Assembly: GCA_017623315.1 (NCBI GenBank) | Contig: JAGAPJ010000120.1 | Coordinates: 1 to 34,215 of the forward strand | Source of the DNA: Clostridia bacterium | GTDB taxonomy: Bacteria > Bacillota > Clostridia > Oscillospirales > Acutalibacteraceae | Direction of reading: 5' to 3' | DNA length: 34,215 nt | In this document: piece by piece, positions 3,255 through 26,064 of the stretch | Layout: each line of letters starts with the position of its first letter | Position numbering within the stretch: the first letter of the stretch is position 1 | Program-made: the position numbers and the translations under genes | The notes under the pieces: model-generated | Told to the model about the DNA's origin: nothing | The model's database searches: none | The model's input: the letters and a program-made list of their open reading frames with translations, nothing else

Positions 3255-3330
3255 GGTCGAGGCGACAGGATTTGAACCTGCGGCCTCTGCGTCCCGAACG
3301 CAGCGCTCTACCAAACTGAGCCACGCCTCG
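3254..3330 (-). tRNA. tRNA-Pro (anticodon CGG), CCA encoded
   Basis: Read on the minus strand from 3330: acceptor CGAGGCG pairs with CGCCTCG. The D-arm is GCTC-AGTTTGGTA-GAGC, the anticodon arm is CTGCG-TTCGGGA-CGCAG with anticodon CGG, and the T-arm is GCAGG-TTCAAAT-CCTGT. The discriminator is A and CCA is encoded (3254-3256). C1-G72 and the CGG anticodon fit proline (codon CCG). This is the only intact copy; two truncated copies lie upstream at 3503-3541 and 3713-3735. No convincing promoter is visible directly upstream of it. Confidence 0.95.
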
Positions 3331-3867: not shown

Positions 3868-4398
3868 ATGGCAAAACCGCTAAATAAAAATACTAAAGCT
3901 TTAATTTTCGCGGCGTTGTTTACGGCGGTAATTTGTTTTTTTTCGCAAATTATGGTGCCAACCCCCGTTTTGCCTGTCACCCTGCAGGTTTTTGGCGTTT
4001 GTCTTTGTGGTTATCTTTTGGGGGCGAAATTTTCGCTTTTATCGGTGCTGTGTTATATATTTTTAGGCGCGGTGGGGCTTCCTGTTTTTTACGGCTTTCA
4101 AGGCGGCGCACACCACCTTTTATCATTGACAGGCGGTTTTATTTTTGGCTTTTTACCCCTTTCGTTTTTCTGTGGAATTTCTAAAAAGATAAAATCAAAA
4201 TTAATGAAAATTTTATTAGGCATTTTGGGCGTTTTAATTTGCCATTTTGCTGGCGTTTTACAGTTTTCGCTTGTTTCGTCAAACGGTTTTTTTGAAAGCT
4301 TTGTAATTGCATCGCTGCCATATTTATTAAAGGATATACCCCTTTGTATTTTAGCGTATTATATAGCCCAATTTATAAATAAAAAGGGGCTAAACTGA
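3868..4398 (+). CDS. bioY: BioY biotin transporter, S component of an ECF importer
   Basis: 176 residues, the usual size of BioY. The start ATG 3868 has AGGGA a few bases upstream. The protein is almost entirely hydrophobic with about six membrane segments. It shows the BioY signatures: PTPVLPVTLQVFG at 31-43, LGAVGLPVFYGFQGG at 66-80, a TGGFIFGF stretch at 88-95, and LLKDIP near the C-terminus (153-158), in the region of the biotin-binding lysine and aspartate. It captures biotin at the cytoplasmic membrane and needs the EcfT and EcfAA' energising module, which is not in this window. No biotin biosynthesis gene is adjacent, so the cell may depend on imported biotin. It has its own sigma-A promoter and probably a short transcript; read-through into the GH16 gene 79 bases later cannot be excluded because no terminator is visible. 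Confidence 0.93.
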   Translation: MAKPLNKNTKALIFAALFTAVICFFSQIMVPTPVLPVTLQVFGVCLCGYLLGAKFSLLSVLCYIFLGAVGLPVFYGFQGGAHHLLSLTGGFIFGFLPLSFFCGISKKIKSKLMKILLGILGVLICHFAGVLQFSLVSSNGFFESFVIASLPYLLKDIPLCILAYYIAQFINKKGLN

Positions 4399-4413
4399 AA
4401 TTGCAACAAAAAA

Positions 4414-4431
4414 TATGAAGAATATACCAAG
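4414..4431 (+). promoter_or_regulatory. Shared 18-bp element, copy 1 (upstream of first GH16 gene)
   Basis: TATGAAGAATATACCAAG, 47 bases before the GH16 start. It matches copy 3 (10890-10907) at 15 of 18 positions and copy 2 (5999-6016) at 14. A -10-like TTTAAT follows 20 bases later. Candidate activator site for the AraC-type regulator at 9482. Confidence 0.55.
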
Positions 4432-4477
4432 ACATTTGCTCTTTAAGGTGGTTTAATGAATTTAAGGGAGTGATATT

Positions 4478-5830
4478 ATGGTATATAAATATAAAAAATT
4501 TATTGCATTTTTTATGGCAGTTTTAATGTTGTTTACGTTATGTTGCTGTACTGCAAAGCCCATACAAAAGCCTGTGGATAATAATTCCGACACCACCTCG
4601 CAGGGCGAAGGTCGGACTGATACCATCACAAGCGTTCCCACACAAAATAGTTCAAACATTCCTGAAAATTCAAGTGTTATTGGTACCACCTCTACTGAAA
4701 ATGGTGATACTACAATTTCCACCACAAGTCCCACAACACCAACCACAAGTGAAACGGTTAACAGCAATTCAAACCATAAAATAACCGCCACTTACGAATG
4801 GCACCCCGGTCTTCCAAATGAGGATGTTTATTATGATTTGACGGTAATGGTAGATGATAAGCTCGTTAACATAAGCAGCTATACCATAACCTCAAAGGTT
4901 AAGGGGGTTACAGGCAAGCAAAACCGTGTAACCTTGCCGTATAGCGCACGTGAAAAGGGTGAAAATGTTATTGTTACGGTTAAGCACGAATCGGGCGCAA
5001 GCTGTGATATAAGCATACCCTGCTTTAAATGGACTCAAACCTTTAACGACGACTTTAACGGCACCGAGCTTGACCGCACCAAATGGAAGGAGCATTGGTA
5101 TTTAACCAACGTTGCCCCTGCTGATGCTTCAACTTATCAGGTAATTGACCGTGCAAAGCCTGCGAAGGACTGTTATACCGTAAGCGACGGCAAATTAAAT
5201 ATGTTAATCAAAGCCGAGCCCACCTATGACACAAGCGCAAAAATTAAATATCTTTATAGCGAATGCTGCCTTGATACAGCGGGACGATTTGAACAAACCT
5301 TTGGGCTTTTCCAAGCAAGAGTAGCCTCGGCAAAATTCAGCGGTATAAATACAGCTTTTTGGTTATTGCCAAATGGGGCATATTCAAAATTTTACACTAA
5401 CTTTTTAAGCGCCGACCCACGTTATGGCTTGGCTGAAATTGATATATACGAATCCTCTGTGGCGTTTGGAAATTATAACCGCCGTACCTTTGCTATATCC
5501 GAACATTTTTATGATTATACCAATAATTATAAGGCAGGCAATAAGCGTTCGGCTTATTACAAGTTAAACGATGATATAACAAATTTTCATACCTATTCGT
5601 GTATTTGGACGGCTGACGCGCTTTATTATTATGTGAATAATAAGTTTATTAGAAGCTCGGTAGGGCTTCAAACCGAAAGTGCGGACGGACGTGAAATCAC
5701 CCCTGCTTATATGATAGTTGACGTTTCGCTTTATCTTGATAATGCTTGGGTAGGCAAGCGCGACTTTAAGGCTTCCGATTTACCTATTGCAGGTTACGTT
5801 GATTGGGCGCGTGCTTATAAATTTAATTAA
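4478..5830 (+). CDS. GH16-family endo-beta-glucanase lipoprotein (paralogue 1)
   Basis: 450 residues. Residues 1-24 are a lipoprotein signal ending in LCCC, lipidation probably at Cys24. Residues 25-98 are a Ser/Thr/Asn-rich linker suited to crossing the wall. Residues 103-185 form a beta-rich module beginning with YEWHPG, present in all three GH16 proteins here. The GH16 domain runs from about 188 (TFNDDFNGTELDRTKW) to the end. The catalytic motif GLAEIDIYE places the nucleophile at Glu320, the helper at Asp322 and the acid/base at Glu325; E-x-D-x-x-E is the beta-bulge form typical of laminarinase-like GH16. It should cut beta-1,3 or mixed-linkage glucan at the cell surface, though the exact substrate cannot be read from the sequence. 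GGGAG precedes the start and a terminator at 5853 follows, so it is probably a single-gene transcript. Confidence 0.87.
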   Translation: MVYKYKKFIAFFMAVLMLFTLCCCTAKPIQKPVDNNSDTTSQGEGRTDTITSVPTQNSSNIPENSSVIGTTSTENGDTTISTTSPTTPTTSETVNSNSNHKITATYEWHPGLPNEDVYYDLTVMVDDKLVNISSYTITSKVKGVTGKQNRVTLPYSAREKGENVIVTVKHESGASCDISIPCFKWTQTFNDDFNGTELDRTKWKEHWYLTNVAPADASTYQVIDRAKPAKDCYTVSDGKLNMLIKAEPTYDTSAKIKYLYSECCLDTAGRFEQTFGLFQARVASAKFSGINTAFWLLPNGAYSKFYTNFLSADPRYGLAEIDIYESSVAFGNYNRRTFAISEHFYDYTNNYKAGNKRSAYYKLNDDITNFHTYSCIWTADALYYYVNNKFIRSSVGLQTESADGREITPAYMIVDVSLYLDNAWVGKRDFKASDLPIAGYVDWARAYKFN

Positions 5831-5852
5831 ACGTTAAAAACGCACTTATTTG

Positions 5853-5881
5853 GGCGCCTTTCACAAGAAAGGTGCCTTTTT
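5853..5881 (+). terminator. Terminator after first GH16 gene
   Basis: GGCGCCTTTC (5853-5862) pairs with GAAAGGTGCC (5867-5876) with one G-T pair and a 4-base loop, followed by five T. It starts 22 bases after the stop codon. Confidence 0.88.
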
Positions 5882-5945
5882 GTTGAAAAATGGTAATAAA
5901 CGTCGAAGAACTGTTTGTGAAAAATACCTAATATGTAGATTTGTG

Positions 5946-5960
5946 TATCGTTAATCGATA
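5946..5960. repeat. Short dyad TATCG-TTAAT-CGATA
   Basis: Perfect 5-bp arms around a 5-base centre in the 288-base gap before the CBM protein gene. It could be an operator, but a dyad this short in AT-rich DNA may be chance. Nothing else was recognised between the terminator and the shared element at 5999. Confidence 0.25.
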
Positions 5961-5998
5961 TTGATAATAACTAAAAATATGAAATAAACCCTGCACAA

Positions 5999-6016
5999 AG
6001 TGAAGATTTTACCAAG
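5999..6016 (+). promoter_or_regulatory. Shared 18-bp element, copy 2 (upstream of CBM protein gene)
   Basis: AGTGAAGATTTTACCAAG followed by CAA, as in copy 3. A -10-like TATGAT starts at 6037, 20 bases after the element, the same gap as in copy 1. The gene starts 102 bases downstream. Confidence 0.5.
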
Positions 6017-6118
6017 CAAACGAGCGGCGGAAATGATATGATAATAGTGCATAGCAGTTGTGTGGTAATTTGCCCTTATCGGTAAACCACAAATTTTATT
6101 TTTAAGGAGTGTATAAGT

Positions 6119-9100
6119 ATGACATCTATTAAAAAGACATTGGCGATTATCCTAGCATTGACTGTATTGTCTGTTGCGGTAATTGTTCCGCTTAGCGCAT
6201 TCACAGGCAGCACAGCAACAATGCCGACAGTCTTTACTTTGATTGAGGATTTTGACGATGGCGCAACCGGTTGGAATTCGGTTGGCAGTGGCGTAGTGTT
6301 CGCCCCAAGCGATGAACACGGTTACGGAACCTCAGGTCAAAGCCTTAAGGTAGACATTAACGGCGGTTGGCAGGGCGCGAAGCTTCAAAGCTGCGCAGTT
6401 GCTATTGAAAATGACGGTTTGGCCTTCTGGCTATATATACCTGAAGCAATGCCGTCGGGCAAAAACTTCGTTGTTAATTTAAGGGTTGGCACTACTGCCG
6501 GCGATTATGGAACCAAGTATGAGGGTGTAGTCCCCAGTGCAACGCTTACCGCAGGTGAGCATATAATCACTATCCCGTGGTCTGATTTTGTGTTAAAGTC
6601 CGGTTCATTGACACTTACATCAGGCAATCTTATTACACAAATTGAATACACCACAAATATCGGTGCGGGTCATACATATTATCTTGACCAAGTTGGTCTT
6701 TATAAAGGCCAAGGCACACAGTCAACTTTTATTCCTAGCACTGTTAAAATGCCTGACAATTATAAGGTAATAGATGACTTTAATAAAGCAAGCGCACTTA
6801 GTTGGGCTGCAACCAACAAAGCAACAATGGAACTTTCGGCTGACCGTGGTTACGGCGCAACCGGTAAATCGGCACACATTAGCTGGAATGAATCTGGTTG
6901 GTCTGGTTTCAAAACTTCCAGTAATCAAAGCATCACAATGACGGGTGACGGTCTTGCATTTTGGGTTTATAACGCAGGCGCAAAAATTACAGATTTAGTT
7001 GTTGTTCTTAATTGTGGCGGCACTAAATTTGAAAAGAAGGTTACTTTTGAAGCAGGCGAACAGGTATTTAAAATTCCGTGGGCGGAATTCACAAATACTA
7101 CCGCAGGTGCTTTTGATGTTTCTAAAACTGTAAATCAAATTGAATTTACAAAATCTGTTGCATCTGCAAATTATTATGTTGATGAGCTAAGCTGCTATTC
7201 AAGTTATATAGGCAGCACACTCGATATGCCCGATAACTTCACCCTTATTGAAGACTTTAACGGTGAAAACACTCTTGCATGGGCAGGTACAAATAAAGCT
7301 GCCGACACCTTCAAAATTTCTGCTGAACGCGGTTATGGTGCAGATGGTAAATCCGCTCATGTTAGCTGGACTGAATCCGGTTGGTCGGGCTTCAAGACCG
7401 CAAGCGGTAAAAACATTGCCCTTACAGGTGACGGTCTTGCATTCTGGGCTTATAACGCAGGTGGCGAGCTTACAAGCTTTTGTGTTGTTCTTTTACAGGA
7501 CGGCGTTAAGTATGAAGCAAAAATCACTCTTAAAGCAGGCGAAGCGGTTTATAAAATTCCATATACCGATTTTGTAAAGAACGGTACTGCAGTAAATACC
7601 ACAAAGACTGTTTCTCAAATTGAATTTACTAAATCTGCCGGCTCGGCTGATTACTTTATCGACCAGATTGGTTGCTATTCTAACCCCAAGAAACCCGCAG
7701 TTTCTACTATTGTATTTGATACCAGCACAAAATGCTCTGCTTCCGCTGTAAGCGGCAACGGTAAGGGTAACAGCGGCGGTATGGATAGCGTTAAGTGGAA
7801 ACTTTACGATATTGAAAACGACCCCCGTTTTGTTCGTGCAGGTTGGTTTGTAGCTGATGACGTTACCGCAGGTTATTTCGGTTTTGGTAATGTCACCAAT
7901 ATTGGTACACTTGTAGCGGCTGATGTTTCTTCTGCTTATGATTTCGGTAACCTTGTTTTCTGGATTAAGAGCGAAGTTGCTAACCGTAAGTTAAAGGTTA
8001 CATTGTATGACAGTACTGCAGGTAAAACTGCGGATTACGTTGAATTCACAGTTACTGAAGCAAACAAATGGCAGCAGGTAACTATTCCTGTTAAGGATTT
8101 ATTGGCAAGTGGTACAACACTTACTGAAAGACCTGAATTCCTTAAGTCTATTAACGCTGTTGCATTTACGGGTCAAGGTCTTACCGACACCTTTAAACTT
8201 GGTGAAACCTTTAAGATTGCAGGTCTTCGTATTTATGATTCGGATGTTCCCGATTACAGCGAATATGCAGATCTTGATACCGAAGCTACACAGCCTGCTG
8301 ATGACGGTAGCTATGCAACCGATAGTGAGCTTATTGGTCGTGTATCATTCGAAAAGGATAGCTATTCGGGTAACTCTAACTTCGGCGAAGTTAAAAAGGT
8401 TAAGTACAGCGAATTTGCTGAAGAACTTGCAGGTATTAAAATTACCGCAGGCAGCGGTATTAAGGATGTCGGCACAGCTACCAAGGGTCTTTCGGTTTGG
8501 TTTGGTGGCGAAAAAGAAACCGCAAGCGTTGATGCTTCAACCCTTCAGGACGGTTATTTTAGTATGTGGGTACGTTCAAACCGCGCAGGTATGAGCTTCT
8601 GCTGGTTTATTATGGACGATACCGATAACGACGCTAAAACCACAATGGTACAGGTTTACACCATTAAGGAAGCAAACAAGTGGGAAGAAGTGCGCGTTCG
8701 TCTTACTGATATTGCAGGCAAGGGAATGCTTGACCTTGAATACCTTACTAAAATTCAAATTCGTACAGGTTACGGCGCATTTAACTGGAGATATCCTTAT
8801 GCAGGTGAACAGTGGCTTAATACGGGCGATGTGCTTGAAGTCACAGCCGCAATGATTACCGAAGGCAAGCCTATTAATCCGTTTGAAACCAAGATGAGCT
8901 CTATTGCGCCCGACCTTGATGATAATCAGGGTGGTAATACCGGTGATGACAATAACGACGATAATAATGACAATACCGGTGATAACATAGGCGATAATAG
9001 TGGTAATGAAGGTACTACACCTGAAGGCGATGGCACTGAAAACGAAGGCACAACACCTGAAGACGACGGCACTGAAAATGAAGGCACAACACCCGAAGGG

Positions 9101-9283
9101 GACGGCACTGAAAATGAAGGCGCTGAAGATACCACACCTGATAACAGCGATACTGATACCAACGCTGACGATGATAAGCCGTTTAATGTTGTTCCCATTA
9201 TTATCGGTATAGCAGCAGGTGTTTTAGGTCTTGCAATTTTGGTTGTTATAATCGTTTTAATTGCAAAGAAAAAGAAGGCTTAA
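6119..9283 (+). CDS. Large cell-surface protein with tandem CBM-like domains and a C-terminal membrane anchor
   Basis: 1054 residues, AAGGAG before the start. A signal peptide (about 1-30) is followed by three repeats of about 150 residues at 40-195, 215-360 and 373-520. Each starts M-P-x-x-(F/Y)-x-(L/V)-I-(E/D)-D-F and contains GDGLAFWxYNAG or a close variant, a central IPW/IPY strand and a final Y(Y/F)xD strand. This is the pattern of a jelly-roll carbohydrate-binding fold of the CBM11 or CIA30-like type. Two more diverged beta-domains cover about 530-690 and 725-910. An acidic Asn/Asp/Gly/Thr linker with 12-residue repeats (about 930-1015) leads to a final membrane helix (1021-1049) and a KKKKA tail. 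No catalytic motif was recognised and there is no LPXTG. The protein probably captures polysaccharide at the surface beside the GH16 enzymes. The family assignment of the domains is inference from the strand pattern. Confidence 0.75.
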   Translation: MTSIKKTLAIILALTVLSVAVIVPLSAFTGSTATMPTVFTLIEDFDDGATGWNSVGSGVVFAPSDEHGYGTSGQSLKVDINGGWQGAKLQSCAVAIENDGLAFWLYIPEAMPSGKNFVVNLRVGTTAGDYGTKYEGVVPSATLTAGEHIITIPWSDFVLKSGSLTLTSGNLITQIEYTTNIGAGHTYYLDQVGLYKGQGTQSTFIPSTVKMPDNYKVIDDFNKASALSWAATNKATMELSADRGYGATGKSAHISWNESGWSGFKTSSNQSITMTGDGLAFWVYNAGAKITDLVVVLNCGGTKFEKKVTFEAGEQVFKIPWAEFTNTTAGAFDVSKTVNQIEFTKSVASANYYVDELSCYSSYIGSTLDMPDNFTLIEDFNGENTLAWAGTNKAADTFKISAERGYGADGKSAHVSWTESGWSGFKTASGKNIALTGDGLAFWAYNAGGELTSFCVVLLQDGVKYEAKITLKAGEAVYKIPYTDFVKNGTAVNTTKTVSQIEFTKSAGSADYFIDQIGCYSNPKKPAVSTIVFDTSTKCSASAVSGNGKGNSGGMDSVKWKLYDIENDPRFVRAGWFVADDVTAGYFGFGNVTNIGTLVAADVSSAYDFGNLVFWIKSEVANRKLKVTLYDSTAGKTADYVEFTVTEANKWQQVTIPVKDLLASGTTLTERPEFLKSINAVAFTGQGLTDTFKLGETFKIAGLRIYDSDVPDYSEYADLDTEATQPADDGSYATDSELIGRVSFEKDSYSGNSNFGEVKKVKYSEFAEELAGIKITAGSGIKDVGTATKGLSVWFGGEKETASVDASTLQDGYFSMWVRSNRAGMSFCWFIMDDTDNDAKTTMVQVYTIKEANKWEEVRVRLTDIAGKGMLDLEYLTKIQIRTGYGAFNWRYPYAGEQWLNTGDVLEVTAAMITEGKPINPFETKMSSIAPDLDDNQGGNTGDDNNDDNNDNTGDNIGDNSGNEGTTPEGDGTENEGTTPEDDGTENEGTTPEGDGTENEGAEDTTPDNSDTDTNADDDKPFNVVPIIIGIAAGVLGLAILVVIIVLIAKKKKA
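9005..9121 (+). repeat. 36-base tandem repeat encoding the acidic linker
   Basis: Three 36-base units (9005, 9041, 9077) encode NEGTTPEGDGTE, NEGTTPEDDGTE and NEGTTPEGDGTE, followed by a partial NEG. Codon differences between units show this is not an assembly artefact. Length variation between strains would be expected. Confidence 0.9.
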
Positions 9284-9384
9284 AAAGGCATTTGCTTACA
9301 TAGTTTTAAAAGGTTTGTAATGCCGCTTAAATTTTAATATAATTTTGTAAATATGCGGGTGCAGCTTCAGTATTTTTAAATAGT

Positions 9385-9416
9385 ATTGGGTTGCGCCCAA
9401 TTTACAATTTTTCGGG
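9385..9416 (+). terminator. Weak possible terminator after the CBM protein gene
   Basis: ATTGGG-(5 bases)-CCCAAT stem at 9385-9401, with a T-rich stretch only after about 8 more bases. It lies 100 bases after the stop codon. The rest of the 198-base gap before the regulator is AT-rich and shows no other structure I can name. Confidence 0.35.
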
Positions 9417-9481
9417 TATGTATTTTATGACCTTTTTTTCTAATAATAACACTTAAAAATAAAAACTATGGAATGGATTAA

Positions 9482-10873
9482 ATGTTAAACACAAACAATT
9501 TAAGTTATTGGACGCTTCAAAAATTTCAATATATACTTACCCCAATAAGCAATATGATGTTTTTGGGGCTGGATGCCGAAAAAACCGCTTCAATTTCAAC
9601 CTTAAATCACACCTTTTGTTACGTCAAAAGCGGTAGCGTGGGTGTATCGGTTGAAAATTTTGAATCGGCTGCCAGAAGTGAGAGAATCACATTGTCGGCG
9701 GGTAGCTTGGTTGAATGGAGCGGCAAGGGCTTTATAGAATTTATGGGGCTTGAAAATGACACCCGTGTGTTAATTTTCGACTTTAAAATTTTGCGACCAA
9801 GTCAGCTTGATAGGGACGAAATTTTAAATGCTATAAGCTATAATCTACCCATTTTTATGCAGGCGCTTACCATTGAAATGCCACATATACTTGAGCTTGA
9901 AATTGCCTCAACCGAGCGTAGACTGCTTGAAAGTATGTGTATTGAAGCGGCAAAACGCCCTGCGGGGTATCTTAACAAGGTACAGTTATTGCTTAGTCAG
10001 TTAGTGGTTGAAATTGTGAGAAAACACCCAATGCTCCCACGTTATATCGATGCAGTTGCAATTACAAGCTATACCGACAATGATCGTCCGCTTGCCGCTA
10101 ACCGCGAGATTTTTGTGGACGATGTTGAAATTTGGTGCGGCGATCCTGAAGAAGACGGTGCGTTTATTATACGCACCATGCGGGCGGAAAATTATTTTGT
10201 TTCAAATAACGGCGATAATATTACCGACAAAATAAATTACGAGCTTGTATCACAAAATGCTTCGCATAAATATGGCAGACTTTGGACAGGGAATAAGCCG
10301 TCACTTTATAAGGTGCTTTTTTGGGCGGATAAGGGCATAAAGCCGTTTGATATTCAGCAATACGCTCAAAAGTGGATATATATTAAAACCCGTGTTAAAA
10401 GTAATGCGTCTGGTGAAGTGGGTATTGCGATTTACAGCACAAAGGGGCACCACTGGTTTGGAAGCCCAGTAATGATTGACGAGCCTGATATCTGGCAGGA
10501 AATTACCGTGCCTGTAATGTTTGTTCAATATAACCGCGAAACCTCGCCTATTGTTTCAAAGGCTATAAGGTATATACACGATAATTATTCGCAAAAAATC
10601 ACCTTAAAAACCGTTGCCGATGCAATTTATACAAACCCAAATTATCTTTCAACCGTGTTTAGCCGTGAAAAAGAAATGACCTTTTCGGCTTATATACGCA
10701 GTTATAGGCTTTCGGTTGCACAAAAAATGCTTATTGAAACCGATTTATCGGCTGAAAAAATTGCAATTTCGGTTGGCTTTTATGACATTCAGCATTTTTC
10801 AAAGCTGTTCAAAAAGGAATATGGTGTTTCACCTTATGATTTCAGAAAATCAAACAAGCTTTTAAATAAGTGA
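9482..10873 (+). CDS. AraC-family transcriptional regulator with an embedded beta-sandwich-like domain
   Basis: 463 residues, longer than the usual 280-300 of AraC sugar regulators. The C-terminus carries the double helix-turn-helix: LKTVADAIYTNPNYLSTVFSREK (about 375-397) and EKIAISVGFYDIQHFSKLFKKEYGVSPYDFRK (about 425-456), with the classic G-F-x-D-x-x-x-F-S-K-x-F-K pattern. Residues about 30-105 look like a cupin-type sensor, and 110-185 are helical. Residues about 205-350 are beta-rich, with WIYIKTRVKSNASGEVGIAI and WQEITVPV strands, and resemble the galactose-binding-like folds of CBMs. No signal peptide or membrane helix, so it is cytoplasmic. It sits between the CBM protein and the long GH16/ABC operon and probably activates them in response to an imported oligosaccharide. 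The ribosome binding site (GGA) is weak. Confidence 0.87.
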   Translation: MLNTNNLSYWTLQKFQYILTPISNMMFLGLDAEKTASISTLNHTFCYVKSGSVGVSVENFESAARSERITLSAGSLVEWSGKGFIEFMGLENDTRVLIFDFKILRPSQLDRDEILNAISYNLPIFMQALTIEMPHILELEIASTERRLLESMCIEAAKRPAGYLNKVQLLLSQLVVEIVRKHPMLPRYIDAVAITSYTDNDRPLAANREIFVDDVEIWCGDPEEDGAFIIRTMRAENYFVSNNGDNITDKINYELVSQNASHKYGRLWTGNKPSLYKVLFWADKGIKPFDIQQYAQKWIYIKTRVKSNASGEVGIAIYSTKGHHWFGSPVMIDEPDIWQEITVPVMFVQYNRETSPIVSKAIRYIHDNYSQKITLKTVADAIYTNPNYLSTVFSREKEMTFSAYIRSYRLSVAQKMLIETDLSAEKIAISVGFYDIQHFSKLFKKEYGVSPYDFRKSNKLLNK

Positions 10874-10892
10874 TTTTAAATAATTCACTTAT
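10866..10892. repeat. Inverted repeat overlapping the regulator stop codon
   Basis: ATAAGTGA (10866-10873) and TCACTTAT (10885-10892) flank an AT-rich 11-base loop. The right arm overlaps the start of shared element copy 3. It could be a weak terminator or part of an operator; there is no T-run. Confidence 0.35.
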
Positions 10893-10907
10893 GAAATTTA
10901 TACCAAG
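10890..10907 (+). promoter_or_regulatory. Shared 18-bp element, copy 3 (upstream of the long operon)
   Basis: TATGAAATTTATACCAAG, 49 bases before the second GH16 gene. A -10-like TATAAA at 10926-10931 follows 18 bases after the element. Probable control point for all genes from 10957 to 27995. Confidence 0.55.
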
Positions 10908-10956
10908 CAATATTTATAAAAATATTATAAAATTAATTTAAAGGAAGTGTTAGTTA

Positions 10957-12270
10957 ATGAAAAACATTGTTAAAAAGTCACTTTTAATTGTTATGGTTCT
11001 AGCCTTAATTTTATCGCTTTGCTGCTGTGGCGGAAACAATGGTGGCGAAGCTTCAAAGCCTGATAATACCAACACTAACAACAGTCAAACCACTTCAGAC
11101 GACACGGATAATAATTCAAGTGTTGAGGGTACAATTTCGGGTGAAAACGGCGACACAACCATTTCTTCTACACCCGGCAAGCCCACAGTAAGTGAAAGTA
11201 CAAATAAGGACCCCGCCGGTAATACACTTAAAGCAGTTTATGATTGGCACCCCGGTCTTGTCGATAAGGACGTAGCCTACACCTTAAACGTTAGTTTAAA
11301 CGGTTCGGCTGTTAATGCGGGTGATCTTACAATCACCTCGGCAACTACAGGCGTGAAAATTTCAGGCACAACCATTACACTTCCTTACAGTGTTCGTTCT
11401 GCGGATAAAAATGTTGTAGTTACCATTAAACATAAGAAGGGCACTAAATGTGATGTTTCAATTCCTTGTTACAGCTATAAGCAAACATTTAATGACGATT
11501 TTGACGGCACTGAGCTTAACCGCACCAAATGGCGCGACCACGGTCCCGGTTCTTCAGTTGCTCCGTCAGACGTTGATACATACGAGGTTATCGACCGTGC
11601 AAAAGCTGCTAAAAATTCCTACGAGGTAAAAGACGGTAAGCTTTATATGCTTATTAAAAAAGAGCCCGTTTATGATACCGCTAATAAAATAAAGTATCTT
11701 TACAGCGAATGTTGCCTTGATACACAGGGTAACTTTATGCAAAAGTACGGTCTTTTTGAGGCAAGAATTGCCTGTGCTAAATTCGGCGGTATAAACACTG
11801 CATTTTGGCTTTTACCTAACGGTAGCTATTCGACACAATATACAAACTTTAAAGCTGAATCACCCGAATGGGGCCTTGCTGAAATTGATATTTTAGAAGC
11901 ATCGGTTGCATTTGGTAAAAATGACAGAAAAACCTTCTGCATAACCGAGCATTATTATAACTATAAAAAGAATTTACAGCACGTTCAGGAATCTAAATAT
12001 TACAAGGTAAGCGACACTATCACAAACTTCCACACCTATTCTTGCGTATGGACAAAGGATGCACTTTACTATTATCTTGACGGTGAGCTTATCCGCACCG
12101 CTGACGGTCTTTCTGATAAGGGAACAGGTGATAAGTCGGTGCAACGCGCATATATAATTATCGACAATGCGCTTTATCTTGATAATGCTTGGGTTGGTAA
12201 GCGCGACTTTACTGAAGCTGATCTTCCTATTTCAAGTGTTGTTGACTGGGTACGTGCATACAAGTTCTAA
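10957..12270 (+). CDS. GH16-family endo-beta-glucanase lipoprotein (paralogue 2)
   Basis: 437 residues, AAGGAAG before the start. The lipoprotein signal ends LCCCGG, with Cys24 as the probable lipid site. An Asn/Thr/Ser linker (25-90) is followed by the YDWHPG beta-module (about 95-172) and the GH16 domain from about 177 (TFNDDFDGTELNRTKW). The catalytic motif is GLAEIDILE: nucleophile Glu309, Asp311, acid/base Glu314. The aromatic stretch NTAFWLLPNG just before it and SECCLDT at about 250 are shared with the other two paralogues. It is the first gene of the long operon; the next GH16 gene begins 18 bases after its stop. It probably cleaves beta-glucan outside the cell into oligosaccharides for the two ABC importers downstream. 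Substrate linkage (1,3 or mixed 1,3-1,4) is not determined. Confidence 0.87.
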   Translation: MKNIVKKSLLIVMVLALILSLCCCGGNNGGEASKPDNTNTNNSQTTSDDTDNNSSVEGTISGENGDTTISSTPGKPTVSESTNKDPAGNTLKAVYDWHPGLVDKDVAYTLNVSLNGSAVNAGDLTITSATTGVKISGTTITLPYSVRSADKNVVVTIKHKKGTKCDVSIPCYSYKQTFNDDFDGTELNRTKWRDHGPGSSVAPSDVDTYEVIDRAKAAKNSYEVKDGKLYMLIKKEPVYDTANKIKYLYSECCLDTQGNFMQKYGLFEARIACAKFGGINTAFWLLPNGSYSTQYTNFKAESPEWGLAEIDILEASVAFGKNDRKTFCITEHYYNYKKNLQHVQESKYYKVSDTITNFHTYSCVWTKDALYYYLDGELIRTADGLSDKGTGDKSVQRAYIIIDNALYLDNAWVGKRDFTEADLPISSVVDWVRAYKF

Positions 12271-12288
12271 GGTTTGAGGGGTTTAACT

Positions 12289-13416
12289 ATGGGCAGTATT
12301 TTTAATAAAAAGGAATATTCTAACAAGGGTATTCATTACACCACAGTACGTGTCGAGGCTGACGTAAGCCTTCGTACTGAATATTATTGGCATCCCGGTG
12401 TACCCGGCTTCGACCTTAAATATAATTTTGACGTTACAATGAATCACGGTGAAATAGCAGACGAAAATCTTAAAATTACCTGTAATGATAACCGTGTAAC
12501 AGTTAATAAAACCGAAATTACAATTCCCGAAGAGGTGCGTAATTCTACGCCTGAAATAATTGTTAACGTTGCTTATAAAAACGGTAACGATGAACTTGAT
12601 TGTAATATTGCAGTACCCCTAAAAAGTTGGGAAAATACCTTTAATGACGATTTTGAAGGTGATACACTTAATACTGACGTTTGGAAATCACACCGAAATC
12701 ATCTTACTTATGACAAGCCCGAGGATGCCGATACCTACAAGGTAATTGACCGCGCACAAGTAGCGCCTAACTGCTACACGGTGTCCGACAGTATGCTTAA
12801 TATGCTTATCACCGACGATGTTATTTATGACCCTATTAATAAGGAAACCTATCTTTACAGTGAATGTTGTTTAGACACCCGCGATTCTTTCTTACAAAAA
12901 TATGGTTGCTTCTCGGCACGTATTTCCTGTGCAAAATTCGGTGGCTTAAACACAGCGTTTTGGCTTTTGCCACTTGGTAAGTACAGCACAAAGTACACCA
13001 ACTTTAAGACTGAAGATGCTAAATGGGGTCTTGCTGAAATTGACATTCTTGAAACCTCGGCTGCGTGGGGTCAGGGTAACCGTTTTGCTATAACCGAGCA
13101 TTATTACGATTACACCAACAATTACGCACATATTCAGGAAGGCGAGTATTACGAGGTAGAGGACAAAATGACCGACTTCCACGTATTTACTTGTGTTTGG
13201 TTTGAAGATTCGCTTTATTACTACGTTGACGATAAATTGCTTCGTACTACCTTCGGTCTTCGAGCTGACGGTGTCGAGGGTGAAACCATGACCGAAGCCT
13301 ACATAATTGTTGACGTTTCCTGCTACCTTGACAACAGCTGGGTTGGCAAGCGTAACTTCACCAAAGCTGATTTACCCATTAAAGCTCAGGTTGACTGGGT
13401 AAAGGCTTACAAATAA
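12289..13416 (+). CDS. GH16-family enzyme without a signal peptide (paralogue 3)
   Basis: 375 residues from ATG 12289, which has GAGGGG exactly 7 bases upstream; the TTG at 12274 in the same frame overlaps that site and is rejected. The protein begins MGSIFNKKEYSNKG and has no hydrophobic segment, lipobox or linker, unlike the two paralogues. The YYWHPG module (about 32-112) and GH16 domain (about 117-375) are complete, with EIDILE placing Glu250, Asp252 and Glu255. It is therefore probably active but located in the cytoplasm, or exported by a route not visible here. An internal enzyme could shorten imported oligosaccharides. Alternatively the signal was lost after duplication and the protein is on its way to being a pseudogene, but the catalytic residues and a good ribosome binding site speak against that. 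Confidence 0.83.
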   Translation: MGSIFNKKEYSNKGIHYTTVRVEADVSLRTEYYWHPGVPGFDLKYNFDVTMNHGEIADENLKITCNDNRVTVNKTEITIPEEVRNSTPEIIVNVAYKNGNDELDCNIAVPLKSWENTFNDDFEGDTLNTDVWKSHRNHLTYDKPEDADTYKVIDRAQVAPNCYTVSDSMLNMLITDDVIYDPINKETYLYSECCLDTRDSFLQKYGCFSARISCAKFGGLNTAFWLLPLGKYSTKYTNFKTEDAKWGLAEIDILETSAAWGQGNRFAITEHYYDYTNNYAHIQEGEYYEVEDKMTDFHVFTCVWFEDSLYYYVDDKLLRTTFGLRADGVEGETMTEAYIIVDVSCYLDNSWVGKRNFTKADLPIKAQVDWVKAYK

Positions 13417-13436
13417 TTTTAAAAGAGGTGCTATAA

Positions 13437-14882
13437 ATGAAAAAAATTTTTAAAAAAACCTTAGCAATTTTACTTGTAATGGTATTTTGCTTTACACTTG
13501 CTGCATGCGGTGGCGAACAGGGTAGTAGTCAAGGTGGAAATTCTCAGCCCACCTCAACCCCGTCGGGTAGCAACAGCGCTGTTAACAGCGATGTAAATAG
13601 CGACGTAAATAGCGATTCTAACTCTAACCAAGGCGGTAACCAAAGCGCAAACAGCGGTCCTTCAAATTCGGATATTAAAATTGAAGTAAAAAATATGAAG
13701 GGCAGAGTATTTACCTTTGCCGCACCCTCTTGGGATAATACCGTTGAAACCGATTTGGACTGGGTTAAGGACTTAGAAAAGAAATATAACTGTAAATTTA
13801 AGAACCTAAACCTTAACAACGACTATACAACCCTTTACTCTTCGATTCTTTCGGGCAACCCTATTGCCGACGTTGTTGTATTTAATAACTCTAACTTCTA
13901 TCCTGCAGTTAAAAAAGGTCTTTTAATGGAAATGAAGTCCTCAAAGCTTATTAACTATCAGGATTCGGGTTGCTTTATCCCAAAAGCACAGGAAAAATTA
14001 ACCACAGTTAACGGCAAGCTTTACGGCGCTATTGATACATACGCTTTCCGTCATCTTTTGGTTTACAATCGTTCAATTATTAAGGGCAACGACGACCTTT
14101 TAACCCTTTATAACAACGGTCAGCTTACTTGGGATAAGCTTTATGAAATTTTACAAAAGGTTGTAAAAGCCGGCAAGTACGGTATTTCGGGTAAACAGAA
14201 CGAAGAAGGCATTATGCAAATCTTCATTCTTGCAAACGGCAGTACCTACTATAAGCGCGACGGTATTAACTTTACCTACAACCTTGAAAATCAAAACACC
14301 CGTGACGCTATTGAATTTGTTAGAAAGCTTAAAGCGGGCGGTCTGACAATGCCACTTGACGGCGGTAACTATCTTTATCCTCAAACACAGTTTGTTAAGG
14401 GTCGCGTTGCAATGATGATTGCTGACGGTTGGAACCTTGACTATTTTGCAAAGAATGCTAAGTTTGACTATGGTGTTGTTATGATTCCAAGTAAAAACAA
14501 CCCCAAGAGCGGTCTTGTAGACCTTACCGAATTTGAATGCTACAGTATTCCCGCAAGTGTTAAAGCATCAAGCGACGTTGAACTTATTTTTGCCGCTTGG
14601 AAGCAGGCTGAAGAAGCAAGCAATAACGGTAAAAAATACTCACTTACCAAAAAAAGTGATGCGCTTGATACTAAGGATGCGGCTATAATTAAAAAATATG
14701 CTGACGCTATTGAAAAGGGTCAGGGTATTGTTGATTACCGTAATGCATTGACCGACTATTATGCAGACGACCTTTATAACGCTGAACGTAATTGCCTTTA
14801 CGGTGCAAGTAGTGTTCAGGAATATCTTGAATCGGTTGGCGCAATTTACAAAGCAAAGGCAAAAAGCTTTAATAAGGGCTAA
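13437..14882 (+). CDS. Sugar ABC transporter solute-binding lipoprotein (first set)
   Basis: 481 residues, AGAGGTG before the start. The signal ends LAAC with Cys24 as lipid anchor. A Ser/Asn/Gly-rich linker with repeated NSDV units (about 25-75) precedes a family 1 solute-binding fold: an N-terminal lobe with W..DLEKKYNCKFK, a hinge region, and VKGRVAMMIADGWNLDYF near residue 325. It is expected to bind an oligosaccharide released by the GH16 enzymes and hand it to the two permeases encoded directly downstream. A stem-loop at 14897 separates it from the permease genes and could raise its expression relative to them, as is known for malE-type genes. The exact ligand cannot be read from the sequence. 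Confidence 0.88.
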   Translation: MKKIFKKTLAILLVMVFCFTLAACGGEQGSSQGGNSQPTSTPSGSNSAVNSDVNSDVNSDSNSNQGGNQSANSGPSNSDIKIEVKNMKGRVFTFAAPSWDNTVETDLDWVKDLEKKYNCKFKNLNLNNDYTTLYSSILSGNPIADVVVFNNSNFYPAVKKGLLMEMKSSKLINYQDSGCFIPKAQEKLTTVNGKLYGAIDTYAFRHLLVYNRSIIKGNDDLLTLYNNGQLTWDKLYEILQKVVKAGKYGISGKQNEEGIMQIFILANGSTYYKRDGINFTYNLENQNTRDAIEFVRKLKAGGLTMPLDGGNYLYPQTQFVKGRVAMMIADGWNLDYFAKNAKFDYGVVMIPSKNNPKSGLVDLTEFECYSIPASVKASSDVELIFAAWKQAEEASNNGKKYSLTKKSDALDTKDAAIIKKYADAIEKGQGIVDYRNALTDYYADDLYNAERNCLYGASSVQEYLESVGAIYKAKAKSFNKG

Positions 14883-14896
14883 TTTAAAAAGAAACG

Positions 14897-14917
14897 TGGC
14901 AGGCTTCTTGCCTGCCA
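14897..14917 (+). promoter_or_regulatory. Intercistronic stem-loop between binding-protein and permease genes
   Basis: TGGCAGGC-TTCTT-GCCTGCCA, a perfect 8-bp GC-rich stem with a 5-base loop and no T-run. It is in the place where solute-binding-protein mRNAs are often protected from 3' decay, giving an excess of binding protein over permease. Confidence 0.65.
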
Positions 14918-14941
14918 TATGCTTAAATGAGGTGAACGGCA

Positions 14942-15859
14942 ATGAAAGGAATAAAAAACAAATACACCAAAATGCAGCTTCGTGAAATGAAAACGGGCTA
15001 TATTTTTGTGTTGCCATTTATTATTGGCATTGTTTTCTTTCTTGCATTGCCGATTTTTGATTCTTTACGCATAAGCTTTGGCGATATTAATACCTTTAAC
15101 GGCTATGATATTGTTTTTAAAGGCTTTACGCATTATTTTGACGCTTTGGAGGATGTTGATTATATTAAATATCTGTCCGAAGCACTTAAGGACACGGCAA
15201 TAAACACACCGCTTATAGTGGTGGTTTCATTTGTTATTGCGATGCTATTAAAAAAGGAATTTGTGGGTCGTACAGCTTACCGCATAGTTTTCTTTTTGCC
15301 TGTAATTTTAAGCTCGGGAGTTATGGCTGACATTATGGTGGACACCTTGATTCAGTCGATTATTGACCCCACAACCGCTTCGGATATGGCAGCAGGGGTT
15401 TTGTCTGGCGGACAGGAATTTGTAACAAAGCTTTTACTTAGTTCTGACATTTCGACCGACATTTCAAGCTTTATTCTTTACGCACAGGAAAATATCTCGG
15501 TGGTATTAAGCCATTCGGGTATTCAAATTTTAATTTTCTTGGCGGCTTTACAGTCAATTTCACCCTCACTTTACGAGGCTTCGGCTATCGAGGGCGCAAC
15601 CGCGTGGGAAAACTTTTGGAAAATTACCTTACCAATGGTTAGCCCGCAGCTTTTAGTTGTTGTTTTATTTACAGTTATTGACCGTTTTACCGATATGAGC
15701 ACAAAAATTATGAAGTCAATTTACGATATTGGCTTTGTTGATTTACAGTTTGGCCGTTCATCTGCACAAGCGTGGCTTTACTGTGCAATAATCGGTGTTA
15801 TAGTTGCAATTTTATACGCTATTTTAAAGCGCACCGTATTCACTTATGAAGAACGTTAG
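14942..15859 (+). CDS. Sugar ABC transporter permease, MalF/UgpA type (first set)
   Basis: 305 residues from ATG 14942 with GAGGTG 7 bases upstream. About six membrane segments, beginning with IFVLPFIIGIVFFLALPIF at 21-39. The cytoplasmic EAA loop that contacts the ATPase is EASAIEGATAWENFWKITLP at 212-231, with the conserved alanine and glycine. A longer than usual loop (about 132-190) lies between the third and fourth segments. It pairs with the permease encoded 14 bases downstream and with the binding protein just upstream. No ATPase gene is present in the window, so it probably uses a shared MsmK/UgpC-type ATPase. Confidence 0.9.
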   Translation: MKGIKNKYTKMQLREMKTGYIFVLPFIIGIVFFLALPIFDSLRISFGDINTFNGYDIVFKGFTHYFDALEDVDYIKYLSEALKDTAINTPLIVVVSFVIAMLLKKEFVGRTAYRIVFFLPVILSSGVMADIMVDTLIQSIIDPTTASDMAAGVLSGGQEFVTKLLLSSDISTDISSFILYAQENISVVLSHSGIQILIFLAALQSISPSLYEASAIEGATAWENFWKITLPMVSPQLLVVVLFTVIDRFTDMSTKIMKSIYDIGFVDLQFGRSSAQAWLYCAIIGVIVAILYAILKRTVFTYEER

Positions 15860-15873
15860 AAGGGTGGGTAAAA

Positions 15874-16815
15874 ATGTTTAAATTAAAATCGCCTTCAATT
15901 AAAAAGCCAAGCAAAAAGCAACTTATAAGCTTTGGTCAGGCGTTTATTACGTATGTTTTACTTACCTGCTTGGCTTATATAATTATTTATCCTGTTTTTG
16001 CAAGGCTGATGTATTCCTTTATGACCTCAGCCGACCTTAACGACGACACAGTATTTCTATTTACCAAAAACTTTACTTTAGAAAATTGGGCAACAGCATG
16101 GCAGCTTATGAATTATGGTATTAGTTTTTTAAAAACTGCCTTTTTGGTGCTTTCATATACAGTTTTACAAACAGCCGCCGTTACCTTTATTGCTTACGGC
16201 TTGGCGCGTTTTCGCTTTCCGGGGCGCAGTCTTTTGTTTGTAATTTCAATTATTACCCTTATAATTCCGCCCCAAATTTTAAGTATTCCGCTTTACTTTC
16301 AGTTCCAAAACTTAAGTATTTTGGGTCTTAATACGGGTATGAATTTGCTTAATACACCCATACCTAATGCGCTTTTGTGTATAACAGGCTTGGGGCTAAA
16401 AAGCGGACTTTTAATATTTTTAATGCGTCAGTATTTTACAAGCTTTCCAAAAGAACTGGACGAAGCCGCCGCAATTGACGGCGCAGGTCCCTTTAAAACT
16501 TTCTTTTTGGTTGCGCTTCCAAGCGCTAGAACAATGCTTGTAACAATATTTTTATTTTCACTTGTATGGCAATGGACCGACCGCTTTTACGTTTCGGTTT
16601 TCGAACCGACAAGTAAATACCTGCAAATGATGGTAACACAGGTTTACGGTATGGTAAAGGTTGCTACTCAGGCTTCGGGCAATGTTGATGTGGTGGCGCA
16701 GTCGCTAATTAACAACTCGGCTTTGCTATTGTTTATTTTACCAATGGTAATTGTTTTCCTCTTCGGTCAGCGTTACTTTATAGAAGGCGTTGAACGTTCG
16801 GGCATTGTAGGATAA
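15874..16815 (+). CDS. Sugar ABC transporter permease, MalG/UgpE type (first set)
   Basis: 313 residues, AGAAGGGTGGG before the start. Six probable membrane segments; a basic cytoplasmic N-terminus (KLKSPSIKKPSKK) precedes the first at about 22-42. The EAA loop is DEAAAIDGAGPFKTFFLVALP at about 196-216, a close match to the family consensus EAAxxDGAxxxxxFxxIxLP. ARFRFPGRSLLF at about 111-122 is also typical of the MalG branch. It forms the translocation pore together with the product of the preceding gene. Confidence 0.92.
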   Translation: MFKLKSPSIKKPSKKQLISFGQAFITYVLLTCLAYIIIYPVFARLMYSFMTSADLNDDTVFLFTKNFTLENWATAWQLMNYGISFLKTAFLVLSYTVLQTAAVTFIAYGLARFRFPGRSLLFVISIITLIIPPQILSIPLYFQFQNLSILGLNTGMNLLNTPIPNALLCITGLGLKSGLLIFLMRQYFTSFPKELDEAAAIDGAGPFKTFFLVALPSARTMLVTIFLFSLVWQWTDRFYVSVFEPTSKYLQMMVTQVYGMVKVATQASGNVDVVAQSLINNSALLLFILPMVIVFLFGQRYFIEGVERSGIVG

Positions 16816-16839
16816 TTTAAAAGAAAGGTGCTTTATTTT

Positions 16840-19578
16840 ATGAAGAATAATATATGCCGTATAACGTCATTGATTCTGGCAATAAGTGTAAGCGCCTCTA
16901 TGCTTACCGCTTGCAGTAAACAGGTTAATAAAGCGGTTGACCTTTCGGTTTATTTATCCGAAATAAGCGATGAAGATACAAACGGTGCAATTACTTATTC
17001 TAATTATATTAAAAATTATACTGCCACCACTATTGACGCTAAGGCAAAGGTAATTACTAAAGAAACCGAATGTATAATTGGCAATACACAGGTTTCACAG
17101 TTCAGCGTTATGGAGACGGGGCTTTACCGCCTTTGCGCTGAAATCAAAGGCGAAAAGGATATCCTTGCCGATTATTACGGCAGTCTTAAAATTGACGGCG
17201 AATATCCCTTTTTTGAATGTGAGCAAATTTATTTTGCAAAAAAATGGGTTAATAATAACGAATTTGACGTTAAAAACCAACCCCAACTAACGGAAGCTGA
17301 AAATTATATAAGTTTTGCTAAAAGCGAAAAAAGCTATACCGCAGGGGAATTGTATTTTTATCTTGAGGAGGGTGTGCATAGTTTAGAATTCACACCCGAA
17401 AACCAAAACGTTGAATTTTTGTCTCTTTATTTTGAAGGCTATAAAAACACCGATTTGGTAATAGGTAATCCAAAAGAAAATAACGCCGATGCGGTAATTA
17501 TTCAGGCTGAAAATCCTGATAGCAGAAGCAAATCTTCAATTCTTGAACAAATAGACCGTACCTCTGCCGCAACTGTGCCTGTTTGTCTTGACAGGGCAAC
17601 CTATAACACCTTGGGCGGTAATTCCTGGTCTAAACTCGGCGAAAGCGTGACTTGGAAAATGTCTGTCGAAAATGATGGTTGGTACTGTATTAATTTGCGT
17701 GTCCGTCAGGATTATTCGGTGGGTGCGGTTTCTTGCCGTCGTGTTTTGGTTGACGGGCAAGAAATAAAACAAAATATGCCCGATATTAAGGTGCCTTATT
17801 CGGCTTCGTGGCAACGCCTTACGGTTAGCGACGAAAACAACAAGCCGATATACCTTTACCTTAAAAAAGGTGAACACACCGTAACTATGGAATGTTCGCT
17901 AGGCTCTTTAAAGGACGTTGTGCCCGTAGTTAAAAATAGCGTTAACGAATGTAACCGCATTTACCGTCGAATTATTATGATAACAGGCACAAACCCTGAC
18001 CTTTACCGTGACTATAACCTTGACGAAAAGCTTGAAGACATTTTTAAGGATATACAGCATCAGCGCGATATACTTAACGACGTTGCCGATTATTTATCGT
18101 CCCTTTCCGACAGTGGTGAATCTGATGCGGCAGTTTTTAGAAAGCTAGTACGTCAGTTTGACGAATTTTTGAAGGATTCGGATAATATCCAAGGTCAAAT
18201 TAACACCTTAAACGCTAATATAAGCGCTATAGGCACATGGCTTTTGGAATGTACCTCACAGCCGTTGGAAATTGACTGGCTCGAGCTTTTACCCTATGGT
18301 CAGGAAGCCGAGAAAATTAACGCGAACTTTTTTAAACAGTTGTGGCACGATATTGTGCGTATTTTTAAATCCTACGTTGAAAGCTATAACGTTATAGGTG
18401 AAACCGAAACTGACAAAAACGTAGATGTTTGGGTTGTAACAGGACGTGACCAAATACAAATTATTGAAAGCCTTGCCAATAACGACTTTACAAAGCAAAC
18501 TAACATAGGTGTACGACTTAAGCTTGTTTCGGGCGATTCTATAATGGCGGCAACGGTAGCGGATATCGGTCCCGACGTTACGTTATTTAACGGTGCGCCC
18601 AACGTTATAAGCTATGCCGTAAGAAGTGCAACGGTTGATTTATCTAAGCTTGACGGCTTTGACGAGGTTATTAAGGACTTTTACCCCTCGGCTTTAGAAC
18701 CGTATTATTTACAGGGTGGGGTATACGCCTTACCCGAAAGCCAAAGCTTCCCAATGCTGTTTTACCGCAAGGATATTTTAAAGGAGCTTGAATTAGAGGT
18801 TCCGACTACTTGGGACGAGGTTTATGACTGTATAACAACACTTCAAAAAAATAATATGACCTTTGGTTGCCCAACCTATGATGTGTTTTTATATCAAAAC
18901 GGTGGCGCATATTATAACCAAAAGCGTACGGTTTCACTTTTGAATTCGGAAGAAAGTGTAAAAGCCTTTAAAACCTGGACGAAATTTTATACTAACTTTA
19001 ATTTACCCTTAAGCTATAACTTTATTAACCGTTTTAGAAGCGGTGAAATGCCCGTAGCAATTGCCGACTATAACAGCTATAACAGCTTGGTTGTATTTGC
19101 ACCCGAAATTAGCGGCAATTGGGGTATGACAACCGTTCCGGGTACTGTTAAAGCCGACGGCAGTGTTGACCATTCGGTAAGCACATCGGGCACAGGGGCA
19201 ATGATTTTTTCAAAAAGCGGCGATATTGATTCATCTTGGCGCTTTTTGAAATGGTGGGTAAGCGGTAAAACCCAAACCGACTACGCAACAAAGCTTGAAA
19301 CAAAGCTTGGCGCTTCGGCGCGTGTAATGGTGTCTTCCAAAACCGCGTTTGAAAACCTTAATTGGACAAGTGAACAGTCTGCCGCTATTAAAGAGCAATG
19401 GAAATGGACTGTCGGCACACCCGAGGTTCCGGGTGGTTACCTTATGACCCGCCACATTAACAACATTTTCCGCAAGGTTGTTTACCAAGGTGATGACCTG
19501 CGTGAAACGGTTGGCGAATATAAAAATATTGTAGATAAAGAGCTTACCTTAAAGCGCGAAGAATACGGACTGAAATGA
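16840..19578 (+). CDS. Giant solute-binding lipoprotein with N-terminal CBM-like domains (second ABC set)
   Basis: 912 residues from ATG 16840; AAAGGTG lies 9 bases upstream and the GTG at 16828 is part of that site. The signal ends LTAC (Cys25). Residues about 40-200 and 220-360 are two beta-sandwich-like modules; the second starts IIQAENPDS and has GWYCINLRVRQD, VLVDGQEI and GEHTVTME, the strand order of CBM6/35-type folds. Residues 375-500 are helical, probably a coiled coil. From about 505 there is a complete family 1 solute-binding domain, with YALPESQSFPMLFYRKDIL and PTTWDEVYD as its clearest landmarks. Ordinary binding proteins have 400-550 residues, so the N-terminal half is an extra module that could hold glycan chains near the transporter. 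I recall similarly large binding proteins beside YIP1 and DUF5696 genes in Paenibacillus. Confidence 0.83.
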   Translation: MKNNICRITSLILAISVSASMLTACSKQVNKAVDLSVYLSEISDEDTNGAITYSNYIKNYTATTIDAKAKVITKETECIIGNTQVSQFSVMETGLYRLCAEIKGEKDILADYYGSLKIDGEYPFFECEQIYFAKKWVNNNEFDVKNQPQLTEAENYISFAKSEKSYTAGELYFYLEEGVHSLEFTPENQNVEFLSLYFEGYKNTDLVIGNPKENNADAVIIQAENPDSRSKSSILEQIDRTSAATVPVCLDRATYNTLGGNSWSKLGESVTWKMSVENDGWYCINLRVRQDYSVGAVSCRRVLVDGQEIKQNMPDIKVPYSASWQRLTVSDENNKPIYLYLKKGEHTVTMECSLGSLKDVVPVVKNSVNECNRIYRRIIMITGTNPDLYRDYNLDEKLEDIFKDIQHQRDILNDVADYLSSLSDSGESDAAVFRKLVRQFDEFLKDSDNIQGQINTLNANISAIGTWLLECTSQPLEIDWLELLPYGQEAEKINANFFKQLWHDIVRIFKSYVESYNVIGETETDKNVDVWVVTGRDQIQIIESLANNDFTKQTNIGVRLKLVSGDSIMAATVADIGPDVTLFNGAPNVISYAVRSATVDLSKLDGFDEVIKDFYPSALEPYYLQGGVYALPESQSFPMLFYRKDILKELELEVPTTWDEVYDCITTLQKNNMTFGCPTYDVFLYQNGGAYYNQKRTVSLLNSEESVKAFKTWTKFYTNFNLPLSYNFINRFRSGEMPVAIADYNSYNSLVVFAPEISGNWGMTTVPGTVKADGSVDHSVSTSGTGAMIFSKSGDIDSSWRFLKWWVSGKTQTDYATKLETKLGASARVMVSSKTAFENLNWTSEQSAAIKEQWKWTVGTPEVPGGYLMTRHINNIFRKVVYQGDDLRETVGEYKNIVDKELTLKREEYGLK

Positions 19579-19589
19579 GGTGAAGATGA

Positions 19590-20501: not shown

Positions 20502-20502
20502 T

Positions 20503-21378: not shown

Positions 21379-21382
21379 TAAT

Positions 21383-23503: not shown

Positions 23504-23527
23504 TTTCAGCAAAGGAGGAAGGGTAAA

Positions 23528-26047: not shown

Positions 26048-26064
26048 TTTTTAGGGGTGAATTT

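Follow-up and report, generated by a model that had tools for sequence, protein, structure and literature searches.

The Escherichia coli regulators AraC, RhaS and MarA/SoxS have a half-site beside or overlapping the −35 region, and AraC and RhaS use tandem half-sites. AraC-type regulators of Caldicellulosiruptor bescii are described with tandem-repeat sites upstream of promoter elements and were judged to be activators, in a study that looked for repeats with a 21- or 32-bp periodicity (PMC8579813). In Pseudomonas fluorescens, the MtlR site at PmtlE, shown by mutation, covers at least 37 bp upstream of −35; its two 15-bp blocks, which resemble each other and contain direct repeats, lie at −72 to −58 and −50 to −36 (PMC4514859). 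Here we report a candidate operator of this kind in a 34,215-nucleotide contig of a Clostridia bacterium of the Acutalibacteraceae (JAGAPJ010000120.1, assembly GCA_017623315.1), hereafter the window. An 18-bp element lies there ahead of a GH16 gene, a gene for a protein with a carbohydrate-binding module (CBM) and a long gene run. We consider it probable that an AraC-family activator binds here to a tandem operator of about 37 bp, of which this element would be the proximal half; the likeliest candidate is the regulator encoded at 9482..10873 on the plus strand.

The locus resembles that of C. bescii in having an AraC-type regulator beside glycan genes and tandem-repeat sites upstream of promoter elements, whereas the regulators and targets differ, and the likeness is drawn at the level of site description (PMC8579813). 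With MtlR and PmtlE it shares an operator of about 37 bp made of two repeat blocks upstream of the promoter; MtlR differs in responding to mannitol, in its single promoter, in a block spacing of 22 bp and in the presence of a −35 sequence, TTGTCA (PMC4514859). The gene content is similar to the mixed-linkage beta-glucan locus of Blautia producta, likewise from a Gram-positive bacterium and with GH16, an AraC-type protein and an ABC transporter; in the available text of that report no operator is described and the words "promoter" and "operator" are absent (PMC10318527). The B. producta locus has a cellobiose phosphorylase gene (PMC10318527), and none is among the Pfam matches of the gene run in the window. 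The E. coli regulators were compared with the window regulator by helix-turn-helix (HTH) similarity only. The double HTH, the half-site periodicity of about 21 bp and the proximal half at a weak −35 that mark the AraC/XylS tandem-site class are all present. The system thus looks like known kinds in its testable class features, except for a recognisable ligand domain, and its motif, regulator lineage and gene set look new. The switch seems undescribed, as far as can be said without a literature search for the letters of the motif.

The three 18-mers given in an earlier note on this DNA were recovered letter for letter by sequence match, all on the plus strand: TATGAAGAATATACCAAG at 4414..4431 (site 1), AGTGAAGATTTTACCAAG at 5999..6016 (site 2) and TATGAAATTTATACCAAG at 10890..10907 (site 3). 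The core TGAANNNTNTACCAAG was present without mismatch at these three places only in the window, and with up to two mismatches 11 times, against a shuffle mean of 4.0 (0 of 100 shuffles reached 11). The element ends 47 bp before the start codon of the open reading frame (ORF) at 4478-5830, 103 bp before that of 6119-9283 and 50 bp before that of 10957-12270. A −10-like hexamer lies on the same strand at each site: TTTAAT preceded by TGG (4452..4457), TATGAT preceded by TGA (6037..6042) and TAAAAT (10928..10933). The hexamer reported earlier was therefore found at all three, with a spacing of exactly 20 bases in place of the reported 18-20. For nine sites, including those from other genomes described below, the match to TATAAT at the fixed offset averaged 4.67 of 6 (background 2.26) and was 4-6 of 6 at every site, the best −35 match was weak (1-4 of 6), and TGN preceded the −10 in six. 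When the first −10 base is set as −12, an assigned and unmapped start, the last base of the element falls near −33 and reaches the −35 region. If this assignment is right, the position agrees with the placement just upstream of the core promoter that had been claimed for the element, as does the weak −35.

A genome scan had been proposed in the earlier note as a check. The core by itself, with up to two mismatches, was common in the source genome (G000; 1,666,552 bases in 141 contigs, 87.1% complete, contig C15 being the entire window), with 58 matches per strand against 17 for the reversed control. We then required a −10 (pattern TNTACCAAGN{19,20}TWNNNT). This gave 15 rows in G000, of which nine were within ORFs, one was intergenic and misoriented, and five were intergenic and correctly oriented. 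In G000 and two genomes of the same genus, G415 and G453, taken together, 51 rows were obtained against six in the reversed control: 39 within ORFs as called by a simple ORF caller, one intergenic and misoriented, and 11 intergenic and correctly oriented. Ten of these 11 stand ahead of a gene for a GH16 protein, the CBM protein or one of its homologs: in G000 the three in the window and one on contig C22, in G453 four on a single contig, and in G415 two. The gene behind the C22 site and its G453 counterpart encode proteins that resemble the first part of the window's CBM protein, at 33% and 43% identity respectively, and that themselves lack a CBM match in Pfam.

The eleventh row, G000:C69:33562, lies between an AraC gene (P0002) and uxuA (PF03786, 3.6e-150). 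It was first counted as a member and then demoted, because none of three orthologous promoters carries the element; P0002 orthologs in G456 (77%), G445 (70%) and G453 (69%) precede the same 359-aa (amino acid) gene. Its upstream half is spaced 22, and the site is probably spurious, a chance match or a recent gain. By eye, a promoter-like stretch, TTGCTTTT...TATATAAT, stands before uxuA and behind the AraC gene in all four genomes (L187-L190), and is perhaps uxuA's own promoter. Two other candidates in G000 were rejected: C52:3686 is intergenic yet directed away from the starts of the neighbouring genes, and C5:5608 is inside a long ORF.

Judged from the aligned sites, the element as first reported is the promoter-proximal half of a larger direct-repeat site. 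The three shared sites are real; only half of each had been seen, and a second half lies 21 bp upstream (20 bp at site 1). Site alignment placed the upstream half-sites on the plus strand at 4396..4403 (TGAAATTG, 20 bp from the core TGAA), 5980..5987 (TGAAATAA, spacing 21 bp) and 10871..10878 (TGATTTTA, spacing 21 bp); the TGA of the last is the stop codon of the regulator gene. The consensus reads TGAAWTTT-N13-TGAANNNTATACCAAG-N19/20-TATAAT-like. The repeat was evaluated on eight distinct sites that had been found without using it: the three of the window, C22, two of G453 and two of G415. The mean TGAA match was 3.38 of 4 at −21 and 2.12 at the next best shift, and 0 of 2000 shuffles reached 3.38 at any shift; the five non-window sites by themselves gave likewise 0 of 2000. 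Every repeat statistic excludes two G453 sites that are almost copies of window sites 2 and 3. C69, counted in one early repeat statistic only and excluded from the later ones, was omitted from the eight, as was a site in a further genome of the genus, G435; the latter was found by the bipartite pattern and is not independent evidence for the repeat, and the result is the same when it is left out. At C22, a second TATACCAAA was seen 41 bp above the core, about twice 21 bp (L097, 1147-1196); the other sites have no counterpart of equal quality.

The bipartite pattern, with up to three mismatches, was then scanned through 70 genomes of the genus and matched 30 times in 17 genomes (reversed control, 8). 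Twenty matches were within ORFs and ten were intergenic, and all ten of the latter lie upstream of genes for GH16 proteins, the CBM protein or homologs of it, ending 47-103 bp ahead of them (three in G000, four in G453, two in G415 and one in G435). Window site 1, with its spacing of 20, and C69 are not among the 30. Nine of the ten intergenic matches come from the three genomes that encode the regulator or a close ortholog of it, and the tenth is that of G435. Read from the genomes in this way, the sites recur with the same geometry before homologous genes, to which the intergenic ones appear nearly confined. A looser pattern matched 31 of 61 genomes; where its contexts were read (G415, G066, G401, G402, G416, G439, G440 and the sites of the source genome), neither of two intergenic matches, in G066 and G416, has a recognised glycan gene behind it.

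Comparison of orthologous loci, also suggested earlier, bore the element out: it stands before homologous genes in G453 and G415 though the flanks have diverged. In six homologous-promoter comparisons, 12-15 of 15 element positions agreed against 36-53% of 94 other positions; for the GH16-1 promoters of G000 and G453 the counts were 13 of 15 and 35 of 94. The independent part of this footprint evidence is, on the sequence data, that the matches stand before homologous genes. Among the matches listed in the 70 genomes, close GH16-1 relatives (49% or more) were found only in G000, G435, G453 and G415, and a close GH16 ortholog without the element, as a negative control, was not among them. The GH16-1 ortholog of G435 is 93% identical over residues 55-450 and lies among unrelated genes (L184, G435:C6, 5845-7352). 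In G453, two ORFs similar to GH3 beta-glucosidase/xylosidase models share the contig with the orthologous locus (L102, G453:C44:54000-70000); neither was seen with the element.

The putative binder is a 463-aa AraC-family protein whose C-terminus (residues ~365-456) is an AraC-type double HTH (PF12833, 1.5e-20; PF00165, 7.6e-19). Outside the HTH there was no Pfam match at E values up to 10, and a known N-terminal ligand-binding domain was not recognised; such a domain is not required of all AraC/XylS-family members. Residues ~181-352 (window 10022-10537) have no Pfam match, yet recur in G415 and, remotely, in G419, and are possibly a sensor domain. The N-terminal 351 aa were found in four of the 70 genus genomes, namely G000, G453 (100%), G415 (63%) and remotely G419 (21%, E 3.2e-5), in one of 398 family genomes, where the hit was G000's own copy, and at one locus in genome_contigs, with the same coordinates as G453:C44. 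The full-length regulator, searched against 150 family genomes and plasmids, gave besides itself HTH-region matches among the matches listed. The element had been reported as absent before the regulator gene, and indeed the best match there is 8 of 13 in the window, and likewise in G453 and G415. A terminator-like hairpin between the CBM gene and the regulator has a z-score of −6.3 in G415 and of −0.14, not significant, in the window. A consensus promoter before the regulator (9315-9343) was set aside, the scan being at chance level (8 found, 6.8 expected). Independent expression of the regulator gene is no more than a suggestion.

The earlier view of the element as the target of an AraC-type activator was upheld in the main, by its position, the weak −35, the homologous promoters and the nine of ten hits in regulator genomes; binding and activation are what we infer from these. 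A regulator dimer would sit on two direct-repeat half-sites 21 bp, or two helical turns, apart, with the downstream half TGAANNNTATACCAAG, at about −48 to −33, reaching into the −35 region. At these promoters, whose −10 is TATAAT-like and often extended by TGN, the bound activator would stand in for the absent −35 box. The GH16 and CBM proteins and the GH16/ABC-transporter gene run would then be switched on jointly by a glycan breakdown product, the presumed inducing sugar, whereas no such site precedes the regulator gene.

Several observations weigh against this reading. The repeat is not established by the window's own three sites, which 23 of 2000 shuffles equalled at −21 and 1528 of 2000 when any shift was allowed, and the spacing at site 1 is 20, not 21. 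The sites are also not independent, the GH16 and CBM proteins being paralogous and two G453 sites nearly equal to those of the window, and the footprint comparison is conditional, since a pattern had supplied the sites and the element columns were picked on the same alignment. The proposed −10 would leave the genes at sites 1 and 3 with short leaders, of about 14-17 nt. Finally, G435 keeps a well-conserved full bipartite site ahead of its GH16-1 ortholog, yet no close regulator was found there; its best HTH match to the regulator is 34% identical, and loss and incomplete assembly are indistinguishable, because this genome is 91% complete. The G435 site, which lacks a detected close regulator ortholog, and the 13 HTH_18 matches in G000 lend something to the idea of a true operator bound by another AraC-family protein encoded elsewhere, with the neighbouring regulator a bystander or a second input. 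We regard this as unlikely, as, G435 aside, intergenic bipartite sites were confined to the three genomes that encode the regulator or its close ortholog, and in G000, G453 and G415 two of the targets flank the regulator gene. It is very unlikely that the regulator binds but represses, its site overlapping the −35 region and blocking RNA polymerase until sugar is present: the proximal half-site does reach the −35 region, but −35 boxes as poor as these (1-4 of 6) would need help, and all four single-component AraC-type regulators studied in C. bescii were judged activators by site position (PMC8579813).

The element might instead be no operator, but either a relic of duplication shared by the upstream regions of the paralogs or part of the core promoter of an alternative sigma factor. 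The targets are indeed paralogous (GH16 proteins ~50-56% identical to one another, CBM homologs 33-44%), so a shared ancestry of their promoters is possible. An alternative sigma promoter (extracytoplasmic function, or ECF, type) is expected to have a −10 unlike TATAAT. No such −10 was seen at any of the nine sites, where the hexamer is TATAAT-like, as for the housekeeping sigma factor, and the agreement at the element far above that at other positions is unlike decay, in columns taken from the same alignment; we give this explanation very little credence. Chance similarity is barely conceivable. The core alone is common at two mismatches, and C69, ahead of uxuA, is probably an instance of this, but the placement of the intergenic matches, their recurrence in other genomes and the 21-bp repeat argue against it, and the G415 and G453 sites already contradict it. 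Activation by the neighbouring regulator at a tandem site is thus the reading that we prefer.

The remote relative in G419, an AraC-type protein of 481 aa, shares the middle region and has an HTH 41% identical to that of the window regulator; GFYD-QHF is common to the second HTH of both. Its gene is divergent to that of a 1264-aa protein with trehalase and solute-binding Pfam matches (L104, G419:C16, 9717-9987). The intergenic region contains a direct repeat, TTGGATTTTACMAT, on the strand of the 1264-aa gene, whose copies TTGGATTTTACCAT and TTGGATTTTACAAT, 21 bp apart, agree at 13 of 14 bases. Among 1000 shuffles, 0 did so at this period and 32 at some period of 15-44; TATTAT follows 20 bases after the second copy. 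These data, post hoc and from one genome, agree with a regulator group that would use 21-bp tandem sites with a TTTACCA-like core. Tentatively, and with more doubt than confidence, we suggest that a small AraC subfamily begins with this regulator and includes the G419 protein, that the regulator's unclassified middle region senses imported glycan fragments, and that stand-alone 37-bp operators let scattered genes, such as those at contig C22 and the G435 orphan, join a single glycan regulon and persist when moved to other places and genomes.

In recognising the reported element as half of a classical 21-bp tandem site, the analysis offers a concrete operator prediction for a GH16-centred glycan regulon, with a likely extra target outside the window, on contig C22. 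For bacteria that are known chiefly as assembled genomes, operators like these help in predicting joint gene responses to a single polysaccharide. The predicted targets are all on the plus strand. GH16-1 (4478..5830; PF00722) has the motif EIDIYE, confirmed by a motif check, and by eye a lipoprotein-like start. The CBM protein (6119..9283) has 1054 aa and a CBM30/CIA30 Pfam match at residues 599-683. The gene run (10957..27801) was delimited from ORFs and Pfam matches and comprises 11 closely spaced ORFs, the first being the GH16 ORF at 10957-12270; Pfam matches identify two GH16 proteins, ABC-transporter permeases, a solute-binding protein, Yip1/NHL and DUF5696, and two ORFs have no Pfam match. 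An Rfam scan of the window at the gathering score gave a tRNA gene upstream of the locus (3257-3330, minus strand) as its sole match, and none, such as a riboswitch or T-box, at the element. A 36-bp tandem repeat of 3.2 copies was observed at 9005-9121, in the 3′ portion of the CBM protein gene.

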